Source: Chrysophaeum taylorii
Taxonomy: Eukaryota > Sar > Pelagophyceae > Pelagomonadales > Pelagomonadaceae
DNA: 64,000 nt
Direction: 5' to 3'
Assembly: GCA_029834535.1 (NCBI GenBank)
Contig: JAQMWT010000330.1
Span: forward strand, 372,001-436,000
Positions within the stretch are counted from its first letter, which is position 1. The number at the start of each line of letters is the position of its first letter. Position numbers and translations under genes: made by a program. The notes under the pieces were generated by a model. It made no database searches and was not told the origin of the DNA. It saw only the letters and a list, made by a program, of their open reading frames with translations. Below, in pieces: positions 25,436-55,910 of this stretch.

Positions 25436-27750
25436 CTAGAGGGTCTTTTTAGATCTCTTTTTTTTTGCGCCGGCCGAGGTGAAGTTTTGCTGTAGGAAGT
25501 CGAGGGCCGAGGCCTTCCAGCCAGTGGGCATGTCGAAGACGTCGCCCGGGTTGGCGGTATCGATGTTGGCCGCGAGGCGGAAGCCCTGGTCGATAGCGCG
25601 CTTGGCGTCGAGCTCGGCAGCTTTCTGAGCGCCGCCAATGAGGAAGGCGGGTATTTTGGCGGCATTGAGTTTGTCAAAGAGGTCGTTGACGGCGACCTGT
25701 CCGGCGCACAAGACGACGTCGTCGACCTCGAGGTCGACCTCGGTGGTGGTGGTGGGGGGGGCGTCGGCCTTTCTGACGCGAAGGGCGCCGTCGACCAAGC
25801 CGACGTAAGCGACGCCGCTCATCATGTCGACGCGGCGGCGGCGGAGGGCCGCGCGGTGGATCCAGCCGGTGGTCTTGCCGAGGCTGACGCCGTGGGGGGT
25901 TGTCTTGCGCTGGAGGAGGTAGACCGTGCGCTTGGGGGGGTCGTCATTGGGGGTCTTGAGGGCGCCGCGGGTCGAGAGCGAGGGGTCGACGCCCCACTCG
26001 TCGTAAAAGGAAACGTCGTCCGCGTGCGTTAGGAACTCGGCGACGTCGAAGCCAATGCCGCCGGCGCCGACGACGGCGACGCGGCTGCCGCAGGGGTCGG
26101 CCCCCGCACGCAAGACCTGGGAGTAGGAGCGCACGCGGGGCGGGGCAGCCGCGCCCGGGAGGACGGGGATGTCGACACGACGCGGGACGACACCCGTCGC
26201 GACGACGACCTTGTCGAAGGAGGCGCACTGCGCAACGTCGACGACGGGCTCACCGAGGCGGACCTTGACGGAAGACTTGGCCAGGATCGCACGGAAGTAG
26301 CGCATCGTTTCGCGAAACTCCTCCTTGCCCGGGACGTTTGCCGCGAGGTTGAACTGACCACCAATCTTGTCCGAGCCCTCGAAGAGCGTGACCTTGTGGC
26401 CGCGGTCGGCGAGGGCCGTCGCGCACGAGAGACCGGCCATGCCAGCGCCGACGACGGCTATATTGAGAGGCGCGCGCGTCGGCGCCAAGTTTAGAGAGGT
26501 TTCGTGGCCGGCTCGCGGGTTGACGAGGCAAGAGACCGGGAGGAGCTTGAAGGTGTGGTCGAGGCAGGCCTGGTTGCAGGCGATGCAGGTGTTTGTCTCG
26601 TCCTCGCGGCCCTCGAAGGCCTTGCGCACGATGTCGGCATCGGCGAGGAAGGGCCGGGCCATCGAGACGAGGTCGGCGCCGTCCTCCAGAACGGTCTCGG
26701 CGACGCCGACGTCGTTTATGCGGTTCGTCGCACACAACGCGAGCCGCCGGCCCGCGGGTAGGGCCTCGGCGAGCTTGTGGGTCGCGAAGGCGAAGGCGGC
26801 GCGCGGCACGCAGGTCGCGATTGTCGGGACGCGCGCCTCGTGCCAGCCGATGCCCGTGTTGACGACGTCGACGCCTTCCGTCTCGAGGCGCGTCGTCAGG
26901 TCGACCGCCTCCTCGAAGGCCATGCCGTTTTCCACGAGTTCCACCAGCGAGACGCGAAAGATGATTGCGAAGCCCTCGTTTCCAACCGCGCGACGACACT
27001 CCCTCGCGATCTCGACCGCGAGCCGCGCCCTGTTCTCGGCCGAGCCGCCGTACTCGTCGTCGCGTGAGTTGGTCCTCGGCGCGAGAAATTCGTTGATAAA
27101 GTAGCCCTCGCTCCCCATCAGCTCGACCCCATCGTACCCCGCCTCCTTCGCGAGCGCGGTCGTCTTCGCAAAGTCGGCGACCGTCGCGGCGACGTCGGCC
27201 GTCGTCAGCGCCCTCGGAGTGAACACGTTGATAGGCGCCTTGAGCTTGGAGGGCGCGACCGCCCACGGGTGGTATGCGTACCGCCCCGCGTGCAGAATCT
27301 GCATTGCGATCTTACCGTCGTTCTCGTGCACGGCTTTCGTGACGACCTTGTGGTGGTCTGCTTCGTGCGCGGTCGTCAGCTTACCCGCCATCGGCATTAC
27401 CCATCCCTCGCGGTTTGGAGCGACGCCCCCGGTCACGATCAGACCCACCCCGCCCTTGGCCCGCTCGGCATAAAACGCGGCCATCTCGTCCAGGCCCCCT
27501 GTAGGACCCAGCTTCTCTTCCAGACCCGTGTGCATGCCTGCGCATAACCGGGAGCTGAGGCACATTCTGTATAAAGAACGACTGATCTCGACGACCAATC
27601 AACAACCATCACACACGACGCACTACCCATGACGATGCGGTTCCGGAGCTCGACCCCGCTCGGGAGCACGAGGGGCTCGAACACTCTCTTGTAGGTGGGG
27701 TGCGGCCCGGAGCACGCCGCCATGCGCTGGATGAGGCCCTTCTGCAACAT
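25436..27750 (-). CDS. NADPH-dependent 2,4-dienoyl-CoA reductase, FadH type
   Basis: Two exons, 27,750-27,624 and 27,537-25,436, split by an 86-bp intron (27,623-27,538; GTGCGT...GCGCAG). Splicing rebuilds RNRIVMGSMHTGLEE, the strictly conserved start of the flavin TIM barrel. The 742-aa protein has an Old-Yellow-Enzyme barrel (AFYAERAKGGVGLIVTGG, GYDGVELMGSEGYFINEFL), then a 4Fe-4S cluster motif C-x2-C-x3-C-x11-C (CIACNQAC...), then FAD- and NADPH-binding Rossmann folds (VVGAGMAGLSCA; VAVVGAGGIGFDVAEF). It reduces 2,4-dienoyl-CoA during oxidation of polyunsaturated fatty acids. The ~20 residues before the barrel (MLQKGLIQRMAACS) could be a mitochondrial presequence; the C-terminus ends KKTL. 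Start: ATG at 27,750, with a second at 27,723. It is divergent from the SAP gene, 83 bp away. Confidence 0.93.
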
Positions 27751-33153: not shown

Positions 33154-33627
33154 CTAGCCCTCGCTAGTCGCGAGGAGGTCGCAAACGCGAGAGTAAACCT
33201 TCCTTGCTTGCCAGGCGATCTTCAGAGCCACCATTCTACGGACCGCCGCTAACTGGGGCTCGGCGGCTCTGTCGGGGGGAGCGCCTCTGAGAGCCTTGCG
33301 CTTTTCTCGGGCACGGGCTTTAAAGGCTCGGAACAGAGGGCGCGCCGCTGCAGAGAGATCACTGTGCCGTAGCCAAACGCGCGACTCCGAGCCGTAGTAC
33401 TTGACGAGGTACTGAATGCGACCAGTTTTCGGCTCGGACCGCCAACTTTCTTCAGTTTCCGGGATGCGACGATCTGCCGCAATGCATGAGGGGCTTGCCC
33501 AGGGTCCAAGCGGGACTTCGGTGAGCTCTGAGCACCCGAGGTGCACCCGTGGGGCCCCCTCGGGCTTGGCGACAGCCGCATCCGGGGGGGGGCGCGCGAG
33601 AACACGACGAGAACCCACCCCCAGCAC
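33154..33627 (-). other. Chromodomain-like fragment, left arm of an inverted repeat
   Basis: The - strand frame contains RIQYLVKYYGSESRVWLRH, a pattern like the chromodomain core (YLVKW.G...W.....L). It is followed by a basic helix-rich stretch (RAREKRKALRGAPP). The same protein pattern recurs in opposite orientation at 33,990-34,270. It may derive from a chromodomain-bearing integrase or from a host chromodomain gene. Fragment only. Confidence 0.5.
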
Positions 33628-33989: not shown

Positions 33990-34270
33990 CTGTCTTGAGG
34001 ACAGAACGCGTACAATACCTCGACAAGTTTTGCTGCTCGGAGTCGCGCGTATGGCTAAGGCACGGTGATTTTCCTGCAGCCGCGCTCCCTCTGGTCCGAT
34101 TCTCAGACGCCTATGCCCGCGAAGAGCGTGAAGCTACCAGAGGCGCTCCCTCAGGGACGAGTCGCTGGCACCCAGTCCGTGGCCGTCCGTAGGTCCATAG
34201 CTCTGCTGGCCACCTTGGAGCTCGGCAAGCATTCAAGGCCTCTTCTAGCGTACGCACGCGGCGGTCAGAC
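33990..34270 (+). other. Chromodomain-like fragment, right arm of the inverted repeat
   Basis: RVQYLDKFCCSESRVWLRHG and then AREEREATRGAPSG mirror the left arm at about 75% DNA identity by eye. The two arms with ~360 bp between them would form a large foldback. Confidence 0.5.
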
Positions 34271-34473
34271 ACCCCTCTAGCACGAAACTTTCGTGCTGGG
34301 AGGTCGCAGACTCCCCCCGGGCGCAAAACTTTGGCGCTGGGGGGTGGCGCCACCCCCGCCCAGCAAAACGCTGCTCTCGCGCCCCCCCCTCGGATGCGGC
34401 TGTCGCCAAGCTTCGTGGTTACCGTCGCACGCCAAAATCCTCCCTCCAGCCCCAAATGCCCTGCTGATAATGG

Positions 34474-34788
34474 TGTGGCGTAAGGAGAATTTTAGGGGCT
34501 ACCTGGCGTGCCTTCGAATCCTGGCTCGCCGCTCGCGTCCGTGCCCTTGGTGGAGTCACTGGACGAGGATGGCCGTTCTCCCGCCACACAACCACAAACA
34601 ACTTCCGTGCCTGGTCCTCACAACTTGAGGATCGGCTGTTGCTTTATGATTAAGAACACTTGAATCACAGAAATCAGGGAAGATGATGTCATAGAGAAAA
34701 CTGACATCATCAGAACGGAGTAGGGTGCCCCTGATAAGGGGGGGGGCTAGAAGAGGGTAAGCCTTAGGAGGCGGGAGTTGCCGCCACA
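34474..34788 (-). repeat. 3' LTR of inner gypsy element
   Basis: 315 bp, TGTGGCG...CCGCCACA. Next to it on the internal side lies a purine-rich accaggggagtcc, a polypurine-tract candidate, also present beside the third element's LTR at 53,040. Confidence 0.93.
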
Positions 34789-34829
34789 GGACTCCCCTGG
34801 TAAGAATTCGAGCTGCCCCAGCGAGGTGC

Positions 34830-36260
34830 TAGCGCGAGGAGCGCGGCTTCGCCTTACGAGCATCTCGTGAACGAATCTTCTGGTAAACGCGGGTGATGAC
34901 CGGTTCAGGAACTCGGCCACTGCGTAAAGTAAACTTGGGGATCAACACATCAATCTCGTGCGGAGCGAAATCCGTGACACAAGGAGTTGTGTTGGAGGAA
35001 ATTCTGGACTTGTCGGTGAAACTTCGACCTTCAACGTCCTTGAACTCGGGCTTGAGCTTGCGGTGCGAAAGGTGAGAGGTCGGCTTGAAATAAGCGACAT
35101 CATCGTTCGGACCCAAATCGGAATAGAAATGTAGAGCAACACGATCATTTTGGTAATCGTAAGGCTCGTAAACTTCAGCAACATAAATCTTCTTGCGCCA
35201 ATCAGAGCGCTTCCGGTCAGGAATCCGGAAAACAACAAACTTACCGTGCTGATAATCATCACGGAAGGTTTCTTCGGGTTTGCGGATGGTTTGATCAACG
35301 ATCGGAGGTACCATCACAGGCGTGATCTGACTAACATGAACACGTCGTTCTTCGGGCGGAGAGTCGAGAGACTCAATCCTATAGGTGACCGGGAAAAGGC
35401 GTTCCTTGATAATAAACGGTCCTCGCCATTCCGGTCGAAGTTTGTTCTGAAGGAAAGGAATGTAGAGCAAAACGTGCGATCCTTCCTTGTATTCAACATC
35501 AACATGATCGGCATTGTAGGCCAATCGTTGTTTCTTCAAAGCTTTATCACGAGCCTCGCGGACGATCTTCGTATAATACTTCAATCGTTCACGAGTTTCG
35601 GCGACTGCATCAGAGCGAGTCTTCGGCAACAATCGCGTATCAAAGTCCATAAGCGTGTAGTCAGTCGGCAGCATCGGCTGACGGTTCAGGCGCAGCATAA
35701 AGGGAGAAATCTGCGTGCCTGGAATAAACTTGCGGTTGTAACAAAACGCAATATAATGAGCAAAGTCGGGCCAATCCGTGATGTTCCGGCCCTGAAGGCA
35801 AGCACGGAGGAAGGCCTTGACAAATCGGGTTTACGCTCAGCCGGGTTCGACTGGGCATGATAAGGAATCGTAGTTTGGTATCGTGTGTTGAAGAGATGGC
35901 AAAACTCGCGCATCAACTTGTTCACGAACTCTTTACCGTTGTCGGTACGAATCATCTGGGGCAAGTAGCCCTTGAGGAGGATGTTAATGACAAAGACTCG
36001 AGGACAGACTCAGCAGTCTTATCGTTCAAAACATCCAGAATCAAGAAATGCGAGAGCGGATCAAAAATTACTAGAAGATACGTCTCGGGACCAGCGCTGG
36101 GCAAGGGTCCAAATAAATCCATGCAAAGAACAGCACCATCACCATCGTAGACGGGCTGCTGCAAGAGTCCAGCTCGTTTCGGCTCAGGCGTACGAGCTTT
36201 CTGGCAAACTAAACATTCAGCAATGAAGACTCCAACTTCGTTCGACATGTGGGCCACCAA
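34830..36260 (-). mobile_element. Inner gypsy: integrase core and C-terminal region
   Basis: The integrase core shows MDLFGPLPSAGPETYLLVIFD and IRTDNGKEFVNKLMREF, the Asp sites and spacing of the D-D-E retroviral-type integrase, then TIPYHAQSNPAE. The C-terminal part has KLRPEWRGPFIIKERL, the GPY/F-type module of Ty3/gypsy integrases. A long tail follows with a repeated pattern (RKLKPEFKDVEGRSFTDKS) also kept in the other two elements. Confidence 0.9.
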
Positions 36261-38440
36261 AATCGTTCTTGGATAGCCTGGACGGTACTGTGACGTCCCA
36301 TATGACCACCGTTAACCGGAGTGTCATGGTAGAGTCGAATAATGCGCTTGCGCAACGTAGCAGGTGCAACAATCATCGGGTGCAAATCAGCAGAAATGCG
36401 GTAAAGAACGTCTTTAACGACTTCGAATCGTTCGTTCGCTCGGGAACGTCGCGGCGTCTGACCTTGGGCCATTCGGTAGCGAATATCCTCGCAAGTAGCA
36501 TCAGATTCTTGCTCACGTGCGATCTCAGCGAGCGTCATATTATCGGGTATCTTATCGATATAATCTTTGTAAGCGGCTGCGTCCTTGAAGATCTGTGGCT
36601 CATCGCGCGCACGGTTCTTCCGACGTTGTCTCGTAGCGTGAGACGTAGCCAATTTCATCGGATCCTTTTCAGGATCTTCTTCCTCGTCTTCCGGCAGTTC
36701 GGTCGTAACAAACGACATTATGAAGTGGCAGCCGGATGCGGGAATTCCTTGGTCATCGACAGGTCGGGGAAGCTCTTGGAACACCAAATAAGCGTGGTTC
36801 AAAGGTTCTCCAAACTCGTCAGTCTCGATGACATGATCTATCGGATTGCGGGAGAGACAGTCAGGGATACTCATTCCCGGCGACTTTCCCGGCTTGTAAC
36901 CAAGTTCAGGGTCAAAGTTGGCGAGGCGCATCGCCCAACGAGCAAGCTGCCCAGACGAGTGCGTCGCCTTACGTAAAAACGTCAAATTTCGGTGATCGGT
37001 CTCCAAAACAGTCCGGTGCCCTTCGATGTAGGCTCGAAAGTGCTCTAGAGAAAGTATAACTGCCAGCAGCTCTAGCCGACGGGGCTCATAATTGCGCATC
37101 TCCTTCGGCACAGCTCGGCTCCAATATTCAATCACTCGTTCTTCTCGAGTCACTCTTCCGGCATCGTCCTTGACTTCGACAATCGGAAAGAGATACGCTC
37201 CAAGTCCATCCTTGGAAGCACCGGATCGGATCTGAAAAGGCAGATCATAATCGGGGTGATAGACTCCTCGGGAATCTACCAAAGCTTCAATTATCGTATC
37301 CCAAGCTATCTGATACTCGGGCGTCCACTCGAACTTTACACCTTCGAGGCATAATCGTCTCAGCGGTTCCACGATCTTCGAGTAGCCCTTCACATATCGC
37401 CGGCAATAATTACTCATGCCGATGAAAGAGCGTATCTGGGTCTTCGGGGAAGTATTCGGTAAAGTACCTGGAATCGGCATCTTCTGCAGTGCTTCCAGCG
37501 TCTTCGGACTCGGCTTCAAGCCTTCTGGGGTCGATATGTGTCCCATAAATTCTATATCATCCTTGAGAAGGTGGAACTTCGCGGTTCGACCGCTGTACCC
37601 TCTCTGTGCCAAATGACACATCACTTCGATCAAAACTTGTAAATGTCGATGAAGATCGTCGGATCCCATCATAATATCGTCAACAAACGCAACCAAGTCT
37701 CGATACATCCATTTCGAAAGGTCGCTCGCCATTTGCTTGCAGAAAAGAGCTCCGGCCGTCTTCACACCTAGAGGTAATCGCAAGAAACTATGAGCGCCAA
37801 GTGGGCTAACCATCGTGACAGCGTCTTGCGCTGCCGGATCCAGACGAAGGTTGTGGTATCCCCATCTAATATCAATGCATGTCCGCCATCGTCGCATAGC
37901 GAGAAAAGCTAAAGCATCATCTTGTCGAATGTTCGGCCAACTGTCATTGACCAATTGATCGTTGAGCTGACGTAAGTCAACTGCAGCACGGAACGCGTTT
38001 GACGTTCCAATCTCAGCTCCTTTCTTCGGAAGCATCAACACAGGAAAGCCCCAAGGTGAGTTGGCCGGACGAATGACTCCATCCCGGCACCACTCGCTGA
38101 TCTGCTTGCGGAGACAATCGAGCTTCGCAGGCGTCAATCGGTAGGGCGTCATCTTAATCGGTCGCGGATTCGCGTCTTTGAATCGTAGAGACACAGGAGG
38201 CGAGTCCACAGGTCTCATAATCGGGTCGAAAAAGGCCCAAGAATATTGCACACAGTGACGGAGCATCAGTTTCGCCTCGTCATCTAAGTGCGGATTGTCA
38301 GGAATTCCCAGCTCCTGAACAACCTTGTCAACTTCTTCCTTCGTAGGAATTTGAACTTTCATGGCTTCGTTATCCTTGACATGCTCGGGAGTTTGCGGCA
38401 GCGGTGCACCCTCAGCATCGCGCGGCGCATCTTTCCATGG
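36210..38440 (-). mobile_element. Inner gypsy: reverse transcriptase, RNase H, integrase zinc region
   Basis: RT motifs: RPIKMTPYRLTPAK, PWGFPVLMLPKKG, CIDIRWGYHNLRLDP, LPLGVKTAGALFCKQM and catalytic VAFVDDIMMGSDDL. RNase H: QIRSGASKDGLGAYLF and TDHRNLTFLRKATHSSGQLARW. The integrase zinc-binding HHCC region starts with YHDTPVNGGHMGRHSTVQ. The relation to Ty3/gypsy (Metaviridae-like) is clear. Confidence 0.95.
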
Positions 38441-38499
38441 CACATCGAACTTTTCTCATATTTTAGTCTCACTTCCGGGTGGCTTTTGTTGATCCTCTC

Positions 38500-39880
38500 G
38501 CCTTTGACACGAACACTCGGCTCGCTCTTAATCTTCGGTTCCCGATCTCGCTCAGGATCTGGCGGAACATCCAAATTTGGTTGTCGGGGGGGGGCAGCAA
38601 AAGAAGCATGAGACGTCCCCGGCTCATCTGTTGCAGGCGGAATCAACGGTACCTCTGGAGGTTTCCATTTGGTGCGATCTTGGAGATCATCAGTCGACAC
38701 CCATCTTACGACACGTGTGCGCGTGTTTAACAGCGGAGCTTGTACGTGACGAAGGGTGGTTTCGTCAATTTGCAAATAATAATCAAACGGTCGGTCTGCA
38801 GGACTCAACGCGGACGGCAAGGCTTCGCCGCTCAGGTGAAAATCCTTGGTCACAGAGTTGTGCAGATCGAGTAAAAATAATGTCATCGTGTCTGGTGGCA
38901 CGACGGACGCCAAGTGTTTCAACGAGGTCGTCCTGGAGAAGCCGGCCCAATCGAAATCAAGGGGCATCGTCAGCAACTCCGAAGTCATTTTCAGCTTCAG
39001 AGATCTGTGATCGGAACGGTGCGGTCCTACGCGAAGCGGGACACGCGTAACGGTATAAGCTGCGTCTGTCGCGGCTCGTGATGATCCTGAATTGTTCATC
39101 TGAAGTAAATGTCGTTCGTCAGCGTAGCCAAGCGCAGCGGCGAACTCTTGCTGCATATTCTTGCAAGTCTTTGGAACTGCGCGCAAATGGAGCGGATGGC
39201 TGGAAACCAACAATCGCACGCGACAGCTCATCAAACTGGGCGTTATGTCGTAAAAATTGACGACGTACACGTAAGGGTGCAAACGTGCAACGTAAGAAAT
39301 AATCGAGGCCTCCTGCTCTATCAACCACATGAAGAAACCAGCCATCTTGCATAATTTCATCGTCCAGTGGGTAGCGGTGACTCCCTTCCCAACATCTCTG
39401 GAAGTCAAGTTGCACAGAGCGGAGTGTACGCAGGGTGGCGACGCGATACACATCGACGACGACCATTCCGCGTTGGGTAAATAAGATTCAATCAACCGTA
39501 AGGTTGTAACATAGCGACCACACAGTGTGTGCTGCACCACAGGAATGTTTGGAAAATTCTTATGGTGGATCTGGTTGGCGGTGTCCGACGCATCGAGTGC
39601 TAGCACGACTCGAAACGACGTCCCACACATTTCGTTGGCTCGTTGGAGACCTAAAGTACTGCCTCCGGCTCCACTGAACAGCATCACCACCTTGCGATAA
39701 GTGATTGGAAGCCATTGAACCTTTTCGTATCGGCGGCGGATCTCCGCTTCGGTGATCTCGCGGCACTTCTTTTCATCTTCTTCCGACCTTCGAGCGAAAT
39801 CGTCGTTGCCTTCGGGTCGTTCGAGGGTGGACTTGTCCGCCATAGCGGTCGTAGCGTCCTTCTGCGCCGTGCTCAGCAAC
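38500..39880 (-). mobile_element. Inner gypsy: cytosine-C5 DNA methyltransferase domain
   Basis: Lies between protease and RT. Motif I (AdoMet binding) VVMLFSGAGGSTLGLQRA at ~39,690-39,635; motif IV with the catalytic Cys, CIASPPCVHSALC, at ~39,450-39,410; a motif VI-like WLIEQEASI; motif VIII MSCRVRLLVSS at ~39,225; and motifs IX-X in LKMTSELLTMPLDFDWAGF, then KHLASVVPPDT, at ~38,990-38,890. This order and spacing is that of DNMT/Dcm-type 5mC methyltransferases. The target-recognition stretch is short. The same domain is present in the outer element. Established: C5-methyltransferases have been reported in retrotransposons of dinoflagellates and of the green alga Klebsormidium. Inference: the domain helped the element methylate its own copies or interact with host silencing. 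Confidence 0.88.
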
Positions 39881-39889
39881 ATCGGCGGG

Positions 39890-41005
39890 GGAGACGTCGC
39901 AATGCGTCAAATGACTAGCGACGGAAACGGTGAAAGAAAGGTTCCCCTTGTCGTATCCTTCTTCACATTCTTTCGTAAGTTCGTTGATCGTAGAGACGTT
40001 CAACTCATCTTCGTACCTAACGATATCGCCAATCGCAAGGACTTCGCCTTGAGTGACGACCGTCGGCACTTCTTCCGCGGCAGTAACCGCAACCCGAGCA
40101 GCGGACCGGTCGTGCTCTTCGCAAGAAGAACACATTCCTTCGACAACTCCCAACTGCTCGTTCTCAGCAAACGTAGCGACGAAAACCTGTCCCATTTCCA
40201 TAGGTTTCGACAAAATAACCGGTAGATTGTAAGTTCGACCGGGCTCGATTTGAAGCGTGCGCGCATCGTATGCCACTACTTCTCGCGCGCCTTCTCCCGG
40301 AGCTGGGGAGAGTTTGTTCGTAGCATGTCCCCGCGTAGCCAAGGCTACCGTACGTTCCGGCGGCGGGCTTCGGAGATCTTTAATCGTGCTCAAACGAGCG
40401 TAAACTCGAGTCTTGACCAGGTCGAGACTCTTCCGAAAGGCATCGTGTTGATGATTGTAAATCGGTACGGTTATCGGATCTCGATCGTAAATAGATCGAA
40501 AGCTCACGATGGGCGCATCGACTCGTTCATCCTTAACTTGAATCTTCTTGCGCCCGTAGACGACTTGGGTTCGATAAAAACAGATCCGATCGTAGGGGTA
40601 GTCCACGACGGCTCCTAAAACTCGTATATCGCGCCCTCCCAACAGGAACAGATAGTTCGTATCGGCCACAATAGCGACAATGGGGGCGGCGATGTTGTCG
40701 GCGAGGGCGACCCGAATCGCGATCCAACGAAAGATCGTCGTCGTATTCAACCCTGATCCGTACAGCTTGCGCTTAATCGGAAGTTCGCCTTCATCGAAAA
40801 TCAACTGATCTTTGGCCAACTTTCTGACCATTTCTCGGCAAATATAAGAAACATCTGCCATTCCATCGACACCGATGGTCGTCGAGAATTTCGGTCCGTC
40901 ACGATTCCTGTAGATGTGACAGGCCATAAACGTAAGAGTACCCGTATCTAAACAACTGAGGGTAACCAAATCATCTTCGATCGTCTTGCCCTCTCGCGGC
41001 GTCAA
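39890..41005 (-). mobile_element. Inner gypsy: aspartic-protease-like region
   Basis: A segment with VDGMADVSYICREMVRKL, then YLFLLGGRDIRVLGAVVDYP and RICFYR, follows the retropepsin order (active-site strand, then an I-L-G-x-D-x-L-type strand). Assigned from order and the parallel region in the outer element. Confidence 0.6.
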
Positions 41006-41039
41006 CGAAGTGTGAGCACATCGGGCTCTGACTCGCTCA

Positions 41040-43920
41040 TCTCAGGGGTTGGGCATCGATACCGCGGCTTGAGCTTTCGTATCATCTGTTGTTGGCGTCA
41101 TCGACGTAACGCTCGCGGCAGCCTCTTTATCTGGCGGCTTCCGCTCTTCCTCCAAGACAATCTCGGAGGGAATCAGTGCTGGTAGGGGATCCTGGTCTTC
41201 GTAGTTCTCGGAAGCAAAGGACCCCTCCCATAAATCATTCATTTCGTCTTTCCAGAATGCATATGCAAATTCATTCGTCATCGGTTGATCATCACCCTCA
41301 TCGGCGATCGGTTCCGTGTCGGCTGCAGCTTTGAGTCCGTCGCTGAGCGGTTGTTCTGATGGCTTCTGTAGCAAGAAGCTCCGAGTTCTCGTCCACCAAT
41401 CCTGCAGGTTCCACGTCGGCTCGTCTTCGTCCCACTCGAGAACGCTGCTAATCTTCTTCTTAAATCTATCCTTTTCTTCCGGCGGCGTGTCCGTGGCTCG
41501 ATCCATCGTGGCCGAAACCGTTTCGGGGGGGTCCGCAGGAAAAGATGGCGTCGTCCCCGACGTCAACTCTATCGTAAGATCGTCGTCTGCATCACTCGCG
41601 ATGGTCATCGTCTCGTCCGTCGAATGATCACACGAGTTATCACTGCAGAAATCCATGTCTGGCTCACAGCCAGTTCGGTCGCCAAGGGTCGTCCCTGGAG
41701 GGTCCAAAGATAAGCCGACGGCGTCGAGGGCTTCCTCGTCAAAAACAAACGGTGTGTCGTCAGTGGACGACTCGTCAAATAACGTTATCGCGGACACTGG
41801 TTCACAAGGTGTAGCTTCTTCATCTTACGAGTCTGAATCGCCTTCCCAGTACCGTGGAGCTTCGAGTTCATCGCTCGAATCTTCAAGTTCATCGCTCGAC
41901 ATCTGCTCATAAATCTGTGCCAAAGACCGACGATCGGTCAGCACTACGTGGGGTGGCTCGTCCATCAGCGGGCGAGCAAGATCGTCGAATGCGGCCGCGG
42001 CAAGGGCGTCGGCTGCGAGGTCGGGGCTGGTGGCCGTGTTCGGGTACACCATCACTCCTAATGATAACTGTTGACCGCAAGGGGTCGTGAACGCGAGCGT
42101 TGCGCTCAAAAAAAACAAATTATATTGGTGTCGGCCTCCGTCGTATTCGTCGTCGCGCGATCGGCGTCGTCTGTGCCGGCGCGAACTTCGACTGGGGCTC
42201 TTGTTATCTTTGTCTCTCTCTGGCGTCAGTTCGGCAGGTCCTAGTACCTCTGGATCGTCCCTGTAGGCGACTGGTGCTCCCAAGCCTATCCGAACTGTCT
42301 CAATCTTCTCGTCTATTGGAACATCGACACATGCGTCGTCTTCTTGACAAAACTCCGACCAAACGTAAATTAACTCTCCGTTGGCGAATAAATCCATGCC
42401 TCGGGGTCGGAATTGCACTTCTTTCCGCTCTGGCGGTTTCTTCCTCAGGAAACAGTGAGCTCGCATCCATATCGTCGGTACGTTCATCTTCCTCTTATCC
42501 ATGCTGATCGTCCCATCCAAATTCGATTCCGGGCGGCAGCTATACTCATCCCTCATGGTATGTTCGGGATCTTTCTTTATCACATAGCCATCATCATATG
42601 CAGGCTGAAAATCTTTGAACTCTTCGTTCGTGAGTAATACGCCAGGGCTTTCACTGAGCTCCAAAGGCAGTTCATGCGCTATAAGATTCTACACCTCTTC
42701 CGCTTTCGTATTCATTTTCTCGGCCGTTTCACTCGGCCTATCATCCACTCCATCGCTTAGAATATCGGCAATCGCCTCGTCACTAAAAATGCCGGCACAC
42801 GAAATGTCTGCCATCGTCAAAGGGAATAAAACATCTGCAAAAACGTCTGCAGTCGGTTCGTCGGGGGGGGCTGCAAAAGAAGAAGGCGTCGTCCCCGTCG
42901 TCATATCCGTCAAGAAATGGCCACCAAAGGGCACGTGACGTTCGATGGGCGTGTAAACAGGTGCGCGCTTATCATTCGAGATAATCCTCTGCGACGCATT
43001 GTCGATCGATCGTGGAGACGAAGTGTCATCCACTTGAGTGTCCGGAGGTAGACTCATAGCATCGAGCGTAGCAGCGGCGGGTCCCTTCCTTTGGGCGTCA
43101 CCAGCTGCACGGGGCTCGTAAATCGGATTTACACATAACTCCGGCGCGTCGTCAAAACCGAGGGTTGTGTCAGCTGACGACAAATCATATCGTGCCACCA
43201 ACGGTGACACCGGGTCAGAAGCGGTTGTCGGCTTCGGCCCGTAGTTTAACGACGTTTCGGTCAGATTCTCCGATTCTGTGGGGATTTTGGTTTGGGTGAG
43301 CTCCTTCGACTTGGATTGCGCTTGCTCGTAGTTTAACGACGTTTCGGTCATCTCGGACGACTCGTCGTCGTCGTCGCGCGGCTTTCTAACTTTCGCTCGC
43401 GTTCGCGTGGGCGGCGGTACCTCCGAGGGTCGGAATTCTCCCTCAAGAGTGCTCGCTCGCCTCGGGCGACTCGGCGTACGCAATTCATCCCCCTCTCGCG
43501 GGTCAACAATCGCACTTGCTCGTGTATTTTATCTAATCGAGCGTGTTCGTGCCGCATTTGCTCTCGCCTTATTTTTATCTTCTTCTGGTGTAGCCATTCA
43601 CGCCGTATCTCTTCTTCTATCAGCTGGATGAGGATTTCTTTCTCTTGTGCGCGCTTATTTTCTCGGCGTATCTCGCGTAAATGGGCTTTGTAAATCTTTG
43701 CAACGTTCGGTGGTTCATCATCTCGCGCACGTTCTGGATGGGCTGCCGGTTGTCTCGCCGGCGGCGCCCTCGGCAGTTCATCGCCGTTGTAGTTCAGCTC
43801 TTCTTCCTCATCATCATAATCAGTATCATCATCATCGTCCCCCTCGCTCGTCTCATCCTGACGGCCTGGCGGTTCGTCACATCGCGTCTGCTCGTTGGCA
43901 GCATCATCGTCTTCCATATC
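41040..43920 (-). mobile_element. Inner gypsy: acidic and coiled-coil N-terminal region
   Basis: Asp/Glu/Thr-rich frames with a recurring module of the form TGTTPSSFAAPPDEP (near 42,860, 41,530 and again near 38,600) and a charged coiled coil (RREQMRHEHARLDKIHEQVRL) toward the 5' end. A counterpart of the acidic part and of the coiled coil exists in the outer element. Specific function is unknown; the position is that of gag and its linkers. Confidence 0.6.
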
Positions 43921-44378
43921 GGCTCTGGCTCGTTCTAATCGGCCGAGATCAGAGCGGTCCCAAAATGGTTGAATCGTCGTCGTTCTCGTGCTCCTTCGAC
44001 TCTGGAACTTCTACTCGTCCACGACACGCGTAATATCGTCGTTGCGTGCGTCTTCCACCGACAATCTATCAGTCCGGTGGGCGGCAGAATTCGTCTCTGC
44101 CCGGCAATCAATGCCTCAGTGAGTTGCGACCTCACTCCGCTCGCCTGCGGCAGCGGTACCCGGGTTGTGCGTCGGCTAGCACCGAATCGCGCGTCGTCAC
44201 TTCCGACGACTAGCGTATCCGGCCGGGGAACTTTCCCACGGCAGTGGTCCTTCTGGAATTCCTTGTCGGCGCGCTTGATCAGGGCGCGCACGGCTTGTCC
44301 GGACCGTGTAGAGAATGCAAGATGCACTCGTTCGCTGCGACCGATATAGTCGCTCGAATCTCGTATTCCTCCACCACC

Positions 44379-44695
44379 TGTGGCGTAAGGAGAATTTTAT
44401 GGGCTACCTGGCGTGCCTTCGAATCCTGGCTCGCCGCTCGCGTCCGTGCCCTTGGTGGAGTCACTGGACGAGGATGGCCGTTCTCCCGCCACACAACCAC
44501 AAGCAACTTCCGTGCCTGGTCCTCACAACTTGAGGATCGGCTGTTGCTTTATGATTAAGAACACTTGGATCACAGAAATCAGGGAAGATGATGTCATAGA
44601 GAAAACTGACATCATCAGAACGGAGTAGGGTGCCCCTGATAATTGGGGGGGCCTAGAAGAGGGGTAAGCCTTAGGAGGCGGGAATTGCCGCCACA
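44379..44695 (-). repeat. 5' LTR of inner gypsy element
   Basis: 317 bp, nearly identical to 34,474-34,788. Just inside it (on the coding strand) is TGGTGGAGGAATACGAG, a candidate primer-binding site whose complement ends in CCACCA like a tRNA 3' end. Confidence 0.92.
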
Positions 44696-44863
44696 AATGG
44701 CAGACGCGAAAACAAGGCTAGCTCAGGGGTTGCCTACCTAGACACGCCGGCACCTCTAACACTCGAGGTCGTCGGCCTAGGCAGGGGGTGCGCCTCGTTC
44801 GTCGCCACAACAATCACTCGCCAAGACCTCTACTCTGAGGTTGGGAGATCGTTTACTTGTATG

Positions 44864-46486: not shown

Positions 46487-49400
46487 GGACTCCCCTAGTT
46501 GGATAACGAGCTGCCCTCGGCGCTTGGCTCGTTTTCGCTTAGCGCGAGCTTTTGCATCTTGAGCATCTCGGAACTTGACGAGGTCGTAAACGCGTTTGAT
46601 AACGCTATCCGGCACCTTGCCGCTGTACAAACTGATTTGGGAATCAACACATCAGTCTCGTTAGGAGAGAAGTCAGTAACACAGGAAGTGGAATCTTTGG
46701 TCAGCTTCGACCTATCGGTAAAGCTACAACCATCAATATCCTAGTATTCGGGCTTGAGCTTGCGAGTAGGAAGATGAGATAAAAGGAGGAACGCTTGTCA
46801 TTAGGACCGAGCTCAGAATAGAAATGCAAAGCAACACGGTCATTCTCGAAATCGTAGCATTCACAAACTTCAGCAACATATATCTTCTTGCGCCAATTTG
46901 ACTTTTCGTGATGGGGAATCCGGAAAGCAACGAACTTGCAAAGCTTGTAGACGTGCCAGAAAGTCTCTTTCGGCTTAGGAATAGCACGACCGATCATCGG
47001 AGGGACCATAACAGGCGTGATCTGCTGAACAGAAACTGTCCGTCGTTCGGGCGGGGAGTCAAGAGGTCAATCTGATAGGTAGTGGGCGAAAGTCGCTTGG
47101 TGATGACAAATGGTCCGCGCCACTCAGATCGCAGCTTGTTCTGCGAGCGAGGAATATACAGCAAGACATGGGATCCTTCCGCATACTCGACATCGACTTG
47201 ATCAGTGTCGTAGGCCAACTTTTAGTTGCGCTTAGCCTTCTGGTGAGCTACGGCCACTACTTGCGTGTTGAACTTCAACACATTTTGACTTTCATTCCAG
47301 GCACCAGCACGGGCTTGGGGCAATCGGTGTATCGGTTGAGCAAGCAAAGTGTAGTCACTCGGGAGCACTGGCTGGCGGTTCTGATGAAGCACAAACGGTG
47401 AGATTTGAGTACCGGGAGTGAACTTGCGATTGTAGAAAAAAGCAACGTACTTCGCAAACGCGGGCCAATCAGTGATACTCCGACCTTGGAGACATGCTCG
47501 AAGAAAGGTATTGAGAAAAACGGTTCACACGCTCTGCAGGATTAGCTTGACCATGGTAGGGAATCGTGGTCTTGTATCGCACGTTGAAAAGATGGCAGAA
47601 CTCTTCTATCAACTTATTGGCGAATTCACGGCCGTTGTCCGTACGAATCATGTGTGGCATATGCCCACGTAACAAGATGTTCGCGACGAAAGACTCAAGA
47701 ATAGCCTCAGCGGTCTTAGTATGAAGCGCATCCAAAATCAAGAAGTGAGAAAAAGGATCGAAGAGTACGATAATGCACGTCTCGAGACCGGAACTAGGCA
47801 AGGGTCCGAAGAGATCCATGCAAGGACAGAACAATCACCCTCCTAGACTGGCTGCTGAAGTAGACCAAACTCCTTCGGTTCGGGCGTGCGAGCTTTCTGA
47901 CTCACAAGGCACTGAGCAAGAAAGGCACCAACTTCGTTTGACATGTGCGGCCACCAGAAGCGTTCTAAAATCGCCCGAACAGTGCTCTCGCGACCCATGT
48001 GACCACCGTTAACAGGTTTTTCATGGTACAATCGAATGATGCGGTCGCGCAGCTTCGCAGGGGCAACAATCATAGGATGAAAATCGACAGCAATGCGATA
48101 TAGCACTCTCTTGATTCGTTCAAAACGAGTATTAGCTCCATAACGACGAAGGGAATGGCTTTGAGCCGTCCGAGAGCGAATATTCTTGCACGTCGGACCT
48201 TCCTTCTGGGCTCGGATAATCTCATCAAGCGTCAGGTTTTATGGAATCTTGTCAGTATACTCCTGGAAAGCGGCAGCATCGTGCAAGGGATGGGTCGAGT
48301 CTGTAGACGAAGCTTCTGAGGTTGAGCAGTCGCACTGGATACAGCTAGGTACATAGGATCGTCTGGAGGTTCGCCTTTCTCCTCAGGTATGTCGGTCGTA
48401 ATAAAGACAACATGACATGACATCCAGGCAGGGATACCCCGCTCTTATCAGTAGGCTTTGGCACCTCTTGGAAAATCAAATAAGCGTGGTTGAGCGGCTC
48501 ACCAAACTCGTCTGTCTCGATCACGTGATCTACTATAGAATTGCGAGAGGGACAATCAGGGATGCTCATTCCCAGCGATTTACCCGACTTGTAACCAAGT
48601 TCAGGGTCAAAATTCGCGACTCGCATTGCCCATCGGGCGAGCTGGCCAGACGAATGAGCAGCCTTCCGGAAAAATGCCAGATTGCGATGATCCGTCCCAA
48701 CAAAAGTCCTATGTCCTTCGATGTAAGCTCGTAAATGCTCTAGAGAGAGAATGACAGCCAACAGCTCCAAACGGCGGGGCTCATAATCCAAACGGCGGGG
48801 CTCATAATGTCGCATCTCCTTCGGCACAGCACGGATCCAGTACTCAGGCACTCGTTCGTCTCGATTAACTCGCCCGTTCTCATCTTTGTCTCGACAACTT
48901 GGAAAAGGTATGCGCCAAGACCATCTTTGGACGCATCAGAGCGTATCTGGAACGGCAAATCGTAATCTGGATGGTACACTCCGCGAGATTCGAATAAAGC
49001 GGCAATAATCGTGTCCCAAGCCTTCTGACACTCGGGTGTGCATTTGAAAGGCACACCTTTGAGACACATGCGCCTCAGCGGTTCCACGATCTTGGAGTAG
49101 TCCTTTTCGTATCGGCGGCAATAGTTGCTCATCCCGACGAAGGATCGAATCTGAGTCTTCGGTGAAGTATAGGGCAGAGTTCCCGGAATTGGCATATCTT
49201 GCAGTGCCCCCGGCGTATTAAGATTCGGCTTTAAACCATCAGGCGTAGAAACATGGCCCAAAAATTCGACATCATCGTTAAGAAGATGAAAATTCGATGT
49301 TCGACCACTGTATCCTTACTGAGCTAGATGGCTAAGAACTTCTATCAACACCTGCAGATGACTATGGAGATCGTCCGTTCCCATCATGATGTCGTCAATG

Positions 49401-50237
49401 AAAGCAAATAAGTATCTGTACATCCACTTCGACAGATCACTAGCCATCTGCTTGCAAAAGAGAGCTCCACCAGTCTGTACTCCCAAAGGTAAGCGCAGAA
49501 AAATGTGGGCTCCTAGAGGACTGACCATCGTAACAGCGTCCTGGGCTGCAGGGTCCAGACGAGTATTATGATATCCCCATCGTATGTCAATACAGGTTGT
49601 CCATCGGCACATCGCTAGAAATGCTAGCACGAAAAGCGTTAGACGTACCAATTTCAGCTCACTTATTAGGCAGAATGAGCACAGGAAATCCCCAAGGTGA
49701 ATTCGCGGGCCGAATAACTCCATCACGACACCACTCGGTAAATCTGCTTGCGAAAGGCAGTCGAGCTTGACCGGAGTCAGTCGATACGGCGTCATCTTGA
49801 TCGGCCTAGGATTAACGTCCTTGAAACGCAACGATATTGGCGGCGAGTCTACTGGTCTCATGATCGGATCGGGAAACGACCACGCGTCTCGAACGCAGTG
49901 ACTCAGCATAAGCTTCGCATTTTTATCCAATTGCGGATTATGTGGTATTCCAAGCTCCTTCACGACTTTCTCAGCTTCTTCTTTCGTCGGAAGCTTGACT
50001 TTCATAGCGCCATCATCCATCACGTGCTCCGGAGTCTGCGGCAAAGTTACACCATCCTCATCTCGCGGCGCGTCCTTCCAAGGAACATCAAACTTTTCCT
50101 CAAATTGGAATCTGACCTCAGGGTGACTCTTGTTAATCTTCTCGCCGTTGACTCGCATTTTCATCCAAGTGCGGATTATCTGGAATTCCAAGCTCCTTCG
50201 CGACTTTCTCGAATTCTTTTTTCGTCGGAAGCTTCAT
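46487..50237 (-). mobile_element. Outer gypsy: integrase, RNase H and RT region
   Basis: Integrase C-terminal region about 46.5-47.2 kb (KLRSEWRGPFVITKRL). Integrase core about 47.5-48.1 kb (IRTDNGREFANKLIEEF). RNase H about 48.4-49.2 kb (QIRSDASKDGLGAYLF). RT about 49.3-50.2 kb (CIDIRWGYHNTRLDP; FAFIDDIMMGTDDL). Order as in the inner element but clearly diverged, so two subfamilies. Confidence 0.9.
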
Positions 50238-50431
50238 ACTTACTAACTAACTAACTTCAGACCTCTCCCGAGCATGGGAGCCAGGCTGGACTGGCAGGAG
50301 CCGGTCCAGGATCACAGAAGAAAATCACACAGTTGGGGTAGAGGGTGCGAGAGACGAGTACGAGTTGATGGCGGACCGCCACTGCGCGCGGTCTTGTGCG
50401 AAGTCGTGCCACGAGTTGAAGGGGATGTCAC
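50238..50431 (-). mobile_element. LINE 3' end inserted in the outer gypsy element
   Basis: Interrupts sequence that is continuous at 49,990 (gtcggaagctt | actttcatagcg). On - it encodes FNSWHDFAQDRAQWRSAI and ends a few residues later. W-x-D-x-A-x-D-R-x-x-W-R is the motif closing the ORF2 protein of many LINEs. The 3' UTR after the stop is the ~65-bp tail also found on the SINE-like repeats at 820 and 13,480, and it ends in (GTTA)n. A 5'-truncated insertion. Confidence 0.8.
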
Positions 50432-53400
50432 TTTCATAGCGTCATTATCCTTCACATGCTCCGGAGTCTGCAGCAAAGGTACACCATCCTCATCTTGCGG
50501 CGCGTCCTTCCAAGGAACATCACATTTTTCCTCATATTTGAATCTGACCTCAGGGTGCCTCTTGTTAATCTTCTGGCCTTTGACTCGCACGCTCGGCTCG
50601 CTCACTTTCGGTTCGCGATTCTGCTCAGGATCTGGTGGAATATCCAATTGCGGTCGGAGGGGGGAGGGGGGTCCAAAAGAAGCATGTGACGTCCCCGTCG
50701 CATCTGTCTAAGGCGGCAATAAGGGCACTTCGGGTGGTCTCCACTTGGTGGGATCCTGTAGGCCTTCAGCTGACACCCATTTGACGACGCGGGTGCGAGT
50801 GTTTATCAATGGAGTGTGCAAATGGCGGCAGGCGGTATCAGTAACCTTCAAATACCCATAAGAGGGTTGGTCCGTAGGACACAAAGCGCTGGGACGGACC
50901 TAGCCGACATGTCTGAGTCCTTTGGGCACAGAACTGTACGGATCGGTGGCCAAAATAGCAAGAGAGTCGGGTGGAACGATAGAAGCCAAATGTTTGAACG
51001 AGGCGGCTTTCGATAATCCAGCCCAGTCATAATCCGGTGGCATAGTCAGCAGCTCGGCGGTCATCCCCAGGGTCAACGGTTTGGTGTCGGGGCGATGAGG
51101 TCCCATTCGAAGAGAGATGCGCGTGACCGTGTAGGAGGCATGGATAGCGTCTCGGGACGAGCCTAGGTTATTCACCTGAAGCAAGTGCGATTCGTCACCA
51201 TAGCCTCGCTGTTCAGCGAACTTGGTCTGCATATCCAAGCAAGTTCTGGGTGCTTCCTGGAGGTGCAAGGATGTCTCGAAACCAAGAGACGCGCGCGTCG
51301 GCTCATCAGGTGCGGCGTGATATCGTAGAAGTCAACGACGCAAACAAGCGTGTGTAAACGTGCGACATAAGATACGATCGAGGCTTCTTGCTCGATCAGC
51401 CAAAGCAGAAAACCGGCCTACTTGTACATCTTCATGGTCCTGTGGGTTGCAGTAACCCCTTTGCCAATATCACGGGAGGTCAAGTTGCAAAGCGCAGAAT
51501 GTACGCAAGAAGGTGAGGCAATACACATAAACGATGACCATTCTTCCTTTGGTCAGTAGTCATTGATCAAACGCAAGGTCGTGTCATAGCGCCCACAAAT
51601 CGTGTGCTGAACAACTGTCATATCCTCCGCCACTTGTCCTCTAAGAAACGTTCCCGACTTTCAGGACACTGGGGGTACTCACAGTCACGCCGGAGAACTC
51701 TACACTCAAGGTAGGCTCGGGCTTGGGGTCGGCTACGCGTCCTCACAAAACTTGTTCACGCTCGCCAAGCCTCTCAACTTGAGGCTGACTAGTTGCTTTA
51801 TGATAACTAGATACTCTTGACAGAGAAAACTGTGTGACGTGGTGTCACAGAAACAGAATGACATCACTTGACATCATAAGGTAAACGGGAAAAGGCGACC
51901 CGTTAAACGGGGGCTAGGCCTTGAGAAGTGAGGTAAAATCATCAGCGTCTCGGAAAATGCTCGGTTGGGATCGCACACGATATTTCTGGCGTAGTCTCGT
52001 ATCGTGAGATGTAGCCAACTGCATCGGATCGTCGCGACAATCTTCTTCTTCTTCTTCAGGCAATTCAGTCGTGATAAACGACAAGATGACATGACATCCA
52101 GCTAGTGGTGCTCCTTCGTCATCAATGGGCCGAGGAAGTTCTTGGCACACCAAATAAGCGTGATTCAAGGGTTCACCAAACTCATCCGTCTCGACGTCGT
52201 GATCGATAGGATTGCGAGAGAGGCAGTCAGGGATACTCATTCCCGGTGACTTCCCTGGTTTGTAGCCCAGTTCAGGATCAAAGTTGGCAAGTCGCATCGC
52301 CCATCGAGCCAGCTGCCCAGATGAGTGTGTCGCCTTCCGCAAAAACGTCAGGTTGCGGGTCGCATGTTTTGCTCTACATTCCTTTTCTTCAGAACAAGCT
52401 TCGACCAGAATGGCGCGGCCCGTTTATTATCGTGGAACGCCTGTGACCGGTCACCTATAGGATTGTGTCTCTCGACTCTCCGCCTGAACGACGTTGTGTT
52501 CATGTTAGTCAGATCACCCCTGTGATGGTTCCTCCAGTGTTCGATTGAGCCGTGCCTAAGCCCAAGGAAACCTTCCGGGACGATTTTAAGCACGGTAAGT
52601 TTGTTGTCTTTCGGATTCCCGATCGCAAACTGTCCGATTGGCGAAAGAAGATTTACGTTGCTGAAGTTCACGAGCCTTATGATTACGCGAATGATCGATT
52701 AGCCCCGCATTTATACTCTGATCTCGGTCCGCATGACAAGGTTTCTTACTTCAACCCAACCTCACATCTCTCGACTCGCAAGCTCAAGCCGGAGTACAAG
52801 GACGTGGACGGTCGCAGTTTCACCGACAAGTCCAAGGTCACCAACAGTACCACTCCCTGTGTCACCGACTTCGCTCCGTACGAGATCGGTGTGTTGATTC
52901 CGAAGTTTACTTTGCGCAGTGGACGCGTTCCCGAGCCCGTCATCACGCGCGTCTACAAGAAAATCCATTTAAGAGATGCTCAACCAGCCAAAGCTCGTGA
53001 TTCTCGCTGGGCCACTCGCTGAGGGCAGCTCCTATTCTCACCAGGGGAGTCCTGTGGCGGCAACTCCTTCTCCCGAAGGCTTACCCCACTTCTCAAGGCC
53101 TAGCCCCCGTTTAGCGGGTCGCCTTTTCCCATTTTCCTTATGATGTCAAGTGATTTCATTCTGTTTCTGTGACACTACGTCACACAGTTTTCTCTGTCAA
53201 GAGTATCTTATTATCATAAAGCAACTAGCCAACCTCAAGTTGAGAGGCTTGGCGAGCGTGAACAAGTGTTGTGGCGACGCGTAGCCGACCCCAAGCCCGA
53301 GCCTACCTTGAATGTAGAGGTCTCCGGCGTGACTGTGAGTACCCCAAGTGTCCAGAGAGTCGGGAACGTTTTTTAGAGCCGCCACAAGTTTGCGCGATGA

Positions 53401-53700
53401 ACCATATTCGCGTATTCTGAAGAATCCAGAGCTAAGACTACACGAATAGATGACGGGCCATACACTTCGTTCGCACGTTGCAGTCACAAAGTGCAGCCTC
53501 CAGAGCCGCTGAACATCATGACCACTTTCATATATGTGAGCGGAAGCCATTGGGCTTTCTCATAACGCTAGCGAATCTCACACTCAGTGGCGCAGCGTCA
53601 TCTCTGCTCTTCCTCATCGGATTGACGAAGATAAGAGTCGTAATCATCGTCCTTTTCGCCAGGTGAGGGCATCGACTGACCCGATACATGCGAGCAGCCA
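50432..53700 (-). mobile_element. Outer gypsy: methyltransferase region (split by the third element)
   Basis: Motif IX-X block LGMTAELLTMPPDYDWAGL and KHLASIVPPDS at ~51.0 kb; the motif I neighbourhood at ~53.5 kb. Both parallel the inner element's C5-methyltransferase in sequence and place. Presence in two diverged elements makes the domain a family trait. Strongly broken. Confidence 0.75.
51633..53386. mobile_element. Third gypsy fragment with LTRs in inverted orientation
   Basis: The right LTR (53,053-53,386; TGTGGCGG...CCGCCACA) reads on +. The left LTR (~51,633-51,935) reads on -. Between them the left half (51.94-52.35 kb) encodes RNase H-region protein on - and the right half (52.36-53.02 kb) integrase C-terminal protein on +. 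Thus two 3' ends of the same family meet head to head. It sits inside the outer element's methyltransferase region. Fossil. Confidence 0.8.
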
Positions 53701-53889
53701 ACTGTCGCGCCAAGCAAAATCGGTGGGGGGGAGTTGTCGGCCTGATCGAGGTGACTTCTCACTGATACATTGAAAAAAATGCTTCCTTTTCGTCAGACGT
53801 CGTGGTCGCGTCCCCCTTTCGCCAACAGCGGAGACCACTTCTAATTCGTTTTGACCCGAACAATGTCGCCAAGAGCCAGAATCTGGCCT

Positions 53890-55910
53890 TGCATCACCGT
53901 TGTCGGAGCCCCCTGCAAAGACGACACGGCGACCCTAGCAGAATGCTTGTCCTGGACATCGCACGAAGAACAAAAGCCGCACACCAGGCCTGGCTGTTCG
54001 TAGCCAGAAGACGTCGCAACGAAAACTTGACCACTTCCAGAGGCTGTGAAAGCGTCACAGGAACATTGTAGGTTCTGCCTCGCTCGACCATCGGTGTCCG
54101 TGCGGTATAAGCGACAACGTCAGATTCGGATTCCAACGACACCCGCGCGGGTAGATCCGGCAGTATTCCAATCGTCGTAGATGCAGATTGACGCTCGGGC
54201 GGCGGCCGTCGCAAATCAGCCGGGAGGTACGCCCTAGCGAACTTCATCGCCTCCACATCGATGAGGCTTTGCTTCAGCGCAGAATGCTGATCTGAAGATC
54301 GCGGCGACTGCGGGTTGGCGTTCGTCGGTCGGTCTGTACGTCAGAATCGGAGAGTCGACGAACTCGCCTCGGCATCGTATCGTTCGACGTCCGTGTGCGA
54401 CTTGGGTTCGATAAAAGGAAATTCGATCGTGCGGATAATCCACCACAGCGTCCAGCGCTCGAATATCGCAGCCTCCAAGCAGAAGCAGCCTGTTGGTTTC
54501 TGCGACTTTATCGGCAATCGCAACACTTAAAGTAATCCACTCGTAGATCGTGGTTTGGTTCAATCCTGACCCCAAAAGCGTTCGCTTCACTGGCAGCTTT
54601 CCCTTATCAATAATCTTGCCATCGCACTTAAATTGAGCAGCCAGATCCCTGCAAATATACGTAACATCGGCCATACCATCAATGAAACTTTTGTACTTTT
54701 CGTGTCTTATAAACTTGGCACGGCACGAACGTCAACGTGCCCGGATCCAAACAGCTAAGAGTCTCCAATCCTTCTTCAATCACCTTTCCGTATTGCGGTG
54801 AGAGCACCGTGTGATAACACCTAGCCTCTGGCTCAGCATCTCCTGGATCTGACATCGATACATGCGCAATGCTCGAAAGGAACGACTTCGTCCTCGTCCA
54901 AAATCGGAGCTATCCTCGGCAGCTTCATCCTGAGAATCTTGGATCTCTCGGGCGTCGGGTCAGCAGAGCTCATTACCTCTATCTCGGCTTCTTCTTGGTA
55001 GTCGACAAGCGCTTCGGAATCTTCCCAGAATGACTCCATCAGTTCGTCCATCGACACGTCCGAACACACATCGTCCACTTGTCGAAAGTCAGACCAAACG
55101 CCAATCAGCTCCACGCCGGGAAATGTGTTCTGGCCCTGCTGGCGGAATCGCACCTCCTTCCCTTCTGATGGTTTTCTCGCTAAGAAGCTTCGGGCTCGTA
55201 TCCAAATCTCTGAACACTCGACTTCATCTTATCAGCGCTGGTCGTCGAATCCAGCCTTTTCTCTGTGCAGCAGCTCATTTCATCATCGATAGTCCGCTCG
55301 GGACCTTCGTCGGTCACACAGCCTTCATCAAGTACTGGCTGCAGATCCCCACAATTCTTCATAGGCATCACATCAGAGCTTTCGTCTGGCTCCAAAGGCG
55401 GTTCCTGCATAATCGTCTTCACGAACTCTGGCGACTAAACTTCTTCCTCAGTCGCTTCGCTCGGAGCGGAATCGGCTTTCTCGCTTAAAACGCCCAAGTT
55501 CGGCTCGTCGGGGGGCCCTGGAAAACAAGCAGGCGTCGTCCCCGGCGTCAATGTCGGAAGCAAGTGGCCATCCGTGGTCACGTAAAAGTCGACCGGTGCG
55601 CTAAAGGTTGCGCTATCATTTTCCGAGATTTCGCTCTCCGACGCATCATTGATCAGCTCGGGAATCGAAGTGCCATCATCATCGATATCGGACTCAAGCG
55701 GCGAATCAAGGTATAAGCCCACTGCATCAAGGGCAGCATCGTCAAATCCACCATTTGAGACATCGTCCACGAAACCTGTCACGTAGGCAAGATCAGAGCT
55801 GTCAGACGTCTGAAGATCCGCGAGAGAGTCAGCGTTTGTCTCTGAGTCATCTGTCCAATAAGGCGAGTCACCGCGGAATTCCTGTTCAGCAGCTTGGCGT
55901 AAGGCAGCTT
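53890..55910 (-). mobile_element. Outer gypsy: protease-like and acidic linker region
   Basis: Protease-like part about 53.9-54.7 kb (MADVTYICRDLAAQF, RLLLLGGCDIRALDAVVDYP). Acidic linker about 54.8-55.9 kb, with the TPGTTPACFPGPPDEP module near 55,520 equivalent to those in the inner element. Confidence 0.7.

Follow-up and report, generated by a model that had tools for sequence, protein, structure and literature searches.

Does a retrotransposon, normally a target of cytosine methylation, carry a relative of the very enzyme that sets this mark, and what might it be used for? The question is raised by a Ty3/gypsy element in a stretch of 64,000 nucleotides from Chrysophaeum taylorii (contig JAQMWT010000330.1, positions 372,001 to 436,000), which we call the window and whose coordinates are used below. 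An initial annotation, made from the sequence alone, had placed a cytosine-C5 DNA methyltransferase (DNMT) between the protease and the reverse transcriptase (RT) of this element. The domain that we found there is very probably a retained relative of the C5-methyltransferases, and it is constrained in a high-copy family.

The domain and its place in Pol

The element, here called the inner element, is bounded by two long terminal repeats (LTRs). Both start with TG and end with CA, and the 5-bp target duplication AATGG is present on either flank (34469-34473 and 44696-44700). The inner element has the following parts.

34474..44695, minus strand: Ty3/gypsy LTR element, 10.2 kb, delimited by the LTR pair and the target duplication and collinear with a sister copy's open polyprotein
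34474..34788, minus strand: 3' LTR, 315 bp; aligned with the other LTR, it shows 6 mismatches and 2 gap columns
34832..36364, minus strand: integrase region with the H2C2 zinc finger, the core and the C-terminal part, which the window copy encodes in several frames; identified by Pfam H2C2, by tblastn with the sister polyprotein and by rve in sister copy L045
36914..37327, minus strand: RNase H (PF17919 and PF17917), residues 377-514 of the open reading frame (ORF) 36209-38455
37535..38029, minus strand: reverse transcriptase (RVT_1, E 6.6e-12), residues 143-307 of the same ORF
38797..39741, minus strand: C5-cytosine-methyltransferase-like domain, 315 amino acids (aa), with motif I at F22-G27 and a PPC containing C104; identified by PF00145 and by HHalign against shuffles
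39773..41041, minus strand: ORF with a protease-like region and a linker, upstream of the methyltransferase domain; identified by motif reading of the translation
44379..44695, minus strand: 5' LTR, 317 bp, identified by comparison of the LTR pair

In Pfam searches, ORF 36209-38455 (minus strand) matched RVT_1, RNase H and the integrase zinc finger; the C-terminal integrase matches of the window copy were weak and under the cut-off. No protease family matched the inner-element ORFs in Pfam, and the retropepsin-like region was recognized from motifs alone. The window copy is interrupted by stops and frame changes. Sister copy L045 has a single open frame of 3063 aa with the order PF00145, RVT_1, RNase H, H2C2 and integrase core (rve). 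The Pol order RT, RNase H and integrase last was seen in both copies, as in Ty3/gypsy. A candidate stretch for the tRNA primer site adjoins the 5' LTR, and a 144-nt inverted repeat (78% complementary; 33277-33420 and 34007-34150) lies immediately left of the element.

The profile search named in the annotation gave a match above the PF00145 cut-off of 22 bits for the isolated domain: the 315-aa core scored 25.4 bits (E 1.2e-5), and the surrounding ORF (38359-39906, minus strand) scored 23.5 bits (E 4.4e-5). The proposed location between the protease region and RT was thereby borne out. In alignment A1, all nine copies of the domain matched PF00145 at E <= 1 (best 1.5e-6). When one copy was compared by HHalign with 24 DNMTs, the score was 46.9; the best of 60 shuffles reached 22.4 and the best of eight other stretches of the same polyprotein 20.1. 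Since these scores exceed their controls, the resemblance to DNMTs goes beyond chance. The HHalign match spans residues 17-112 only, corresponding to motifs I-IV, and by these comparisons the secure part is limited to this half, with the predicted SAM (S-adenosylmethionine) pocket and the PPC cysteine. All motif strings quoted in the annotation are present in the sequence. Its calls of motifs I and IV are statistically backed; those of motifs VIII and IX-X are plausible and lack such support.

Structure prediction was also performed. The model of the window domain alone had a pLDDT (predicted local distance difference test) of 33, and we rejected it as structural evidence because this confidence is too low. 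With 16 viral DNMTs as the alignment, pLDDT rose to 57.7 and pTM (predicted template modelling score) to 0.62; local pLDDT reached about 80 or more over residues 21-70 and the greater part of 251-290, and about 40-50 in the middle. C5-methyltransferases topped the Foldseek list obtained with this model (best E 3.2e-9; template modelling scores about 0.5-0.6). Because the input alignment consisted of DNMTs, this ranking is circular, and it was not accepted as independent fold evidence.

Copies and purifying selection

How widely the domain is shared was addressed in the source assembly (697 contigs, 70.8 Mb), to which all genome-wide counts refer. A protein search with the domain gave 1506 first-look candidates; 84 of these were scored and all 84 matched, the weakest with E 3.4e-256. 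In a search with 26-base words, allowing up to three mismatches, a domain word was found at 322 places and an RT word at 335; the reversed words used as controls were found at none. Among the places listed, contigs C1-C409 contributed 94 with the exact domain word, of which 67 had the exact RT word at a distance of 1.0-2.6 kb downstream; of the 99 RT places listed there, 67 had a domain word upstream. Nine further RT places adjoin a protein match to the domain, raising the latter count to at least 76 of 99. Thus, several hundred copies make up a family whose Pol contains the domain as a fusion between the protease and RT, and a one-off capture, already doubted in the annotation, does not describe it. 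Neither of the two outcomes that the annotation had named as refuting, a missing PF00145 match or absence of the domain from other copies, was observed.

Selection was estimated from medians of the Nei-Gojobori ratio of nonsynonymous to synonymous substitution rates (dN/dS). Five duplicates among 38 domain rows were dropped, leaving 33 copies, mostly best-scoring loci and hence biased towards intact ones. Within the main subfamily, dN/dS of the domain was 0.21 (466 pairs); across to the diverged copies L043/L044, it was 0.049 (62 pairs), with a saturated dS of 2.1. For RT, the corresponding values were 0.124 (253 pairs from 24 copies) and 0.030 (23 pairs). In the linker that follows the domain, dN/dS was 0.27 within and 0.19 across subfamilies, and the protease and its linker had 0.33 within the main subfamily. 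Judging from the low ratio across subfamilies (about 0.05, with 0.03 for RT), purifying selection has kept the domain in the gypsy family. This agrees with the annotated retention through subfamily divergence, as does the presence of the domain in sister copies.

Beside the inner element lies an older relative from its family, now decayed, which we call the outer element.

46559..55767, minus strand: outer element, recognized from collinear tblastn pieces with 34-75% aa identity
50876..51624, minus strand: main part of its methyltransferase domain, with stops (tblastn 56-73%)
53385..53576, minus strand: motif I part of the same domain, with stops (tblastn 67%)

Its domain is collinear with the inner one and occupies the same place, as annotated; the pieces (53385-53576, 51244-51624 and 50876-51268) all contain stops. 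About 1.7 kb of related-element fragments in both orientations divide it. The ends of this insert (51639-53378) are inverted copies with 93.6% identity (51639-51936 and 53081-53378). A direct repeat with 91% identity (44691-44853 and 58512-58677) flanks the outer element and could represent the ends of another element.

Possible action of the domain

What could the domain do for the element? In the mechanism that we prefer, it would be produced within Pol, alongside RT, and would therefore sit in the virus-like particle, which is the most certain of the proposed steps. Next in certainty, its motif I would bind SAM. The domain may then act on nucleic acid of the element itself while reverse transcription proceeds or shortly afterwards, which is less certain; the most likely act would be cytosine methylation of the new cDNA, by which the copy would resemble host DNA or be shielded at integration. 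As a whole, this mechanism (Pol-borne domain, SAM binding and cDNA methylation) is possible and is proposed tentatively. It is favored by the PF00145 match above the cut-off, the kept motif I glycines and C104, the low dN/dS, the copy counts and the Pol fusion in long open frames. By analogy, it is also favored by the report that isolated SymbioDIRS-Dnmt3 domains methylate CG in yeast (PMC5890265; this and the other papers cited below were available to us in part, and statements on them refer to those parts).

Several observations weigh against cDNA methylation by the domain, beginning with the catalytic residues. No Glu of the domain was opposite the catalytic Glu in 22 of 28 MAFFT runs and in 46 of 60 pairwise runs. 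The catalytic Glu fell on N162, S169, S173, S180 or S181 in 22 of the 28 MAFFT runs and in all 20 pairings with phage protein L059, and where it did so, the Arg pair fell on A224/D226. The register of motifs VI-VIII is ambiguous in these alignments, more of which lose the catalytic Glu and Arg than keep them. Together with the strong constraint despite doubtful catalytic residues, and with the missing CG scar described below, this pattern would fit a retained pseudo-methyltransferase. Such a protein would have kept the SAM-pocket half, lost the Arg of motif VIII together with the catalytic Glu, and could help to bind nucleic acid or to fold Pol. A DNMT relative without catalytic function is DNMT3L. 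We regard this alternative as conceivable, though somewhat doubtful. Other results weigh against it. E142, R174 and R176 occupied the catalytic places in 6 of the 28 MAFFT runs and in one further alignment, and 14 of the 20 pairings with phage protein L056 put E142 opposite the catalytic Glu. In the 33 distinct copies, E142 and R176 were retained in 33 and R174 in 32; C104, which is required for catalysis only, was retained in 32. These four residues were jointly present in 31 of the 33. The motif I residues were equally well kept (F22 and G27 in 32 copies, G24 and G26 in 33).

Traces of methylation in the copies were the other point against cDNA methylation. The observed/expected (o/e) CpG ratio was 1.29 for the inner element and 1.35 for the 3063-aa frame, and six host gene loci had 1.26-1.47, so that depletion was not evident. 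The outer element had 1.08; sequences of a Ty1/copia family of the same genome, which also carries a PF00145 domain, had 0.98-1.16. C/T differences per C among 28 gypsy copies were 0.026 at CG, 0.020 at CA, 0.021 at CC and 0.033 at CT, and among eight copia copies 0.083, 0.050, 0.075 and 0.110, respectively. A CG-specific excess of transitions was found in neither set. In two copia elements that were checked, CG was scarcer than in the host loci examined, and TG and CA were commoner (o/e 1.14-1.22, against 0.56-0.92 in those loci), which would fit some CG loss there or a different composition. A DNMT5-bearing host may methylate without strong CpG depletion, and the flat o/e ratio is therefore compatible with methylation. 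In addition, the KnitGypsy domain was inactive in yeast, a result that its authors call inconclusive (PMC5890265). With ambiguous catalytic residues, and with copies free of CpG depletion and CG-transition excess, the idea in the annotation, by which the element would shape its own methylation, gained no support.

Methylated RNA would leave no CpG scar, and the substrate of the domain could instead be RNA, either that of the element or the primer tRNA; DNMT2 methylates tRNA in this way. In PDB sequence searches, the best matches were DNMT2 chains, with human DNMT2 at E 0.057 and, in another search, 0.27; human DNMT2 also came first in the circular fold search. We consider this explanation improbable. 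Very improbable is a functionless passenger or a chance resemblance to DNMTs. It would be in line with the short PF00145 match (profile positions 2-52 of 324), with the score of only 18.4 bits, under the cut-off, in the very long full frame of L045, and with the lack of significant similarity to DNMTs in the C-terminal half. A passenger is already contradicted by the constraint across subfamilies, and chance by an HHalign score double that of the best shuffle and by the PPC at the expected place.

Kinship, a copia counterpart and surroundings

Where might the gypsy domain come from? Pairwise Z scores against shuffles were 8.5 and 7.1 for phage proteins L059 and L056, 2.4 each for host DNMT2, phage L057 and viral L062, 1.3 for host DNMT5, 0.6 for the copia domain, 0.4 for viral L070 and -0.2 for phage L058. 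L056 and L059 had been fetched by a search with the gypsy domain itself, so their high Z scores are partly selected, and the closest phage proteins were weak matches (E 0.2). Human DNMT3A, the sole DNMT3 compared, showed no similarity beyond shuffles (Z -0.1). In approximately unbiased tests on a tree built without DNMT3 sequences, one clade of the gypsy domain with the copia domain (p 0.294), host DNMT2 (0.131) or host DNMT5 (0.225) was not rejected. In the best tree, the gypsy domain and DNMT2 were not together. An independent acquisition, one of the two origins considered in the annotation, is possible. Pattern scans of IMG/VR revealed no relative of the gypsy or copia domain, and a pattern scan of a genome-contig collection revealed none of host DNMT2. 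The host DNMT2-like gene is at L001:1501-2490 (plus strand). The DNMT5-like gene (L055:68-6325, plus strand) has a C5-methyltransferase part followed by helicase-like matches under the cut-off.

The Ty1/copia family has its own diverged PF00145 domain after a protease-like region (L048:4330-7698, plus strand; L049:704-6307, minus strand; L003-L008, L046 and L047), with PF00145 beside RVT_2 in one frame. Motif I of the copia domain is degenerate and the second Arg of its motif VIII is gone; in the gypsy domain, motifs VI/VIII are doubtful. It is conceivable, though rather unlikely, that gypsy and copia each acquired a C5-methyltransferase just after the protease and each lost a different canonical part under purifying selection. 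If true, this would suggest that both superfamilies employ the fold alike in LTR retrotransposition, perhaps without catalysis or with RNA or cDNA as the target. The co-resident copia family offers a built-in second case.

C5-methyltransferases in retrotransposons have been described from LINE (long interspersed nuclear element) and DIRS elements of Symbiodinium and from a Klebsormidium gypsy element with DNMT3 (de Mendoza et al. 2018, PMC5890265). KnitGypsy-Dnmt3 of Klebsormidium nitens resembles the family described here in its C5-methyltransferase in gypsy Pol, its many copies and its purifying selection (PMC5890265). Its domain is of the DNMT3 class (for the family described here, see the DNMT3A comparison above). 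It differs in its DIRS-like repeats, whereas the inner element has a plain terminal LTR pair and a 5-bp target duplication. SymbioDIRS-Dnmt3 and SymbioLINE-Dnmt are likewise constrained, with hundreds of copies, but are LINE or DIRS elements, the latter with a tyrosine recombinase (PMC5890265), in contrast to the LTRs, gypsy-type RNase H and rve DDE integrase found here. One sentence in a 2025 survey (PMC12344493) mentions LTR Copia and DIRS elements with DNMT3. Taken literally, it would describe a copia element with a DNMT, like the one in this genome; however, the LTR element of the 2018 paper that it cites is gypsy. The Dam-type methyltransferases of DIRS elements are also borne by retroelements, but they are adenine enzymes structurally unrelated to C5-methyltransferases (PMC5890265, PMC6338049). 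A methyltransferase in a Sola DNA transposon of brown algae is of a different kind, N4-cytosine or N6-adenine (PMC12477816). For stramenopiles, the available text of PMC5890265 may imply a gypsy element with a C5-methyltransferase; that of a diatom DNMT paper mentions no stramenopile retroelement with a DNMT (PMC9998398). In a literature search covering few subscription journals, we recognized no description of a gypsy or copia C5-methyltransferase in a fucoxanthin alga. A high-copy family with a constrained relative of the enzyme allows the self-methylation idea to be tested in one more lineage; for this group of algae, the literature searched describes no such LTR element in detail.

Light-harvesting proteins mark the host as a photosynthetic, fucoxanthin-type alga, probably an ochrophyte. 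One protein tested had its closest PDB matches among the fucoxanthin chlorophyll a/c proteins (258.9 bits), entries from diatoms. Light-harvesting proteins gave 84 genome matches, including several tandem arrays of near-identical genes (contigs C88, C539, C390 and others). The window also contains host-type genes.

4862-6190, plus strand: cytochrome b5 domain gene
6280-7941, plus strand: sulfatase gene
7945-9162, plus strand: membrane transporter gene
14029-15969, plus strand: hybrid histidine kinase with response regulator
25436-27595, minus strand: NADH:flavin oxidoreductase gene
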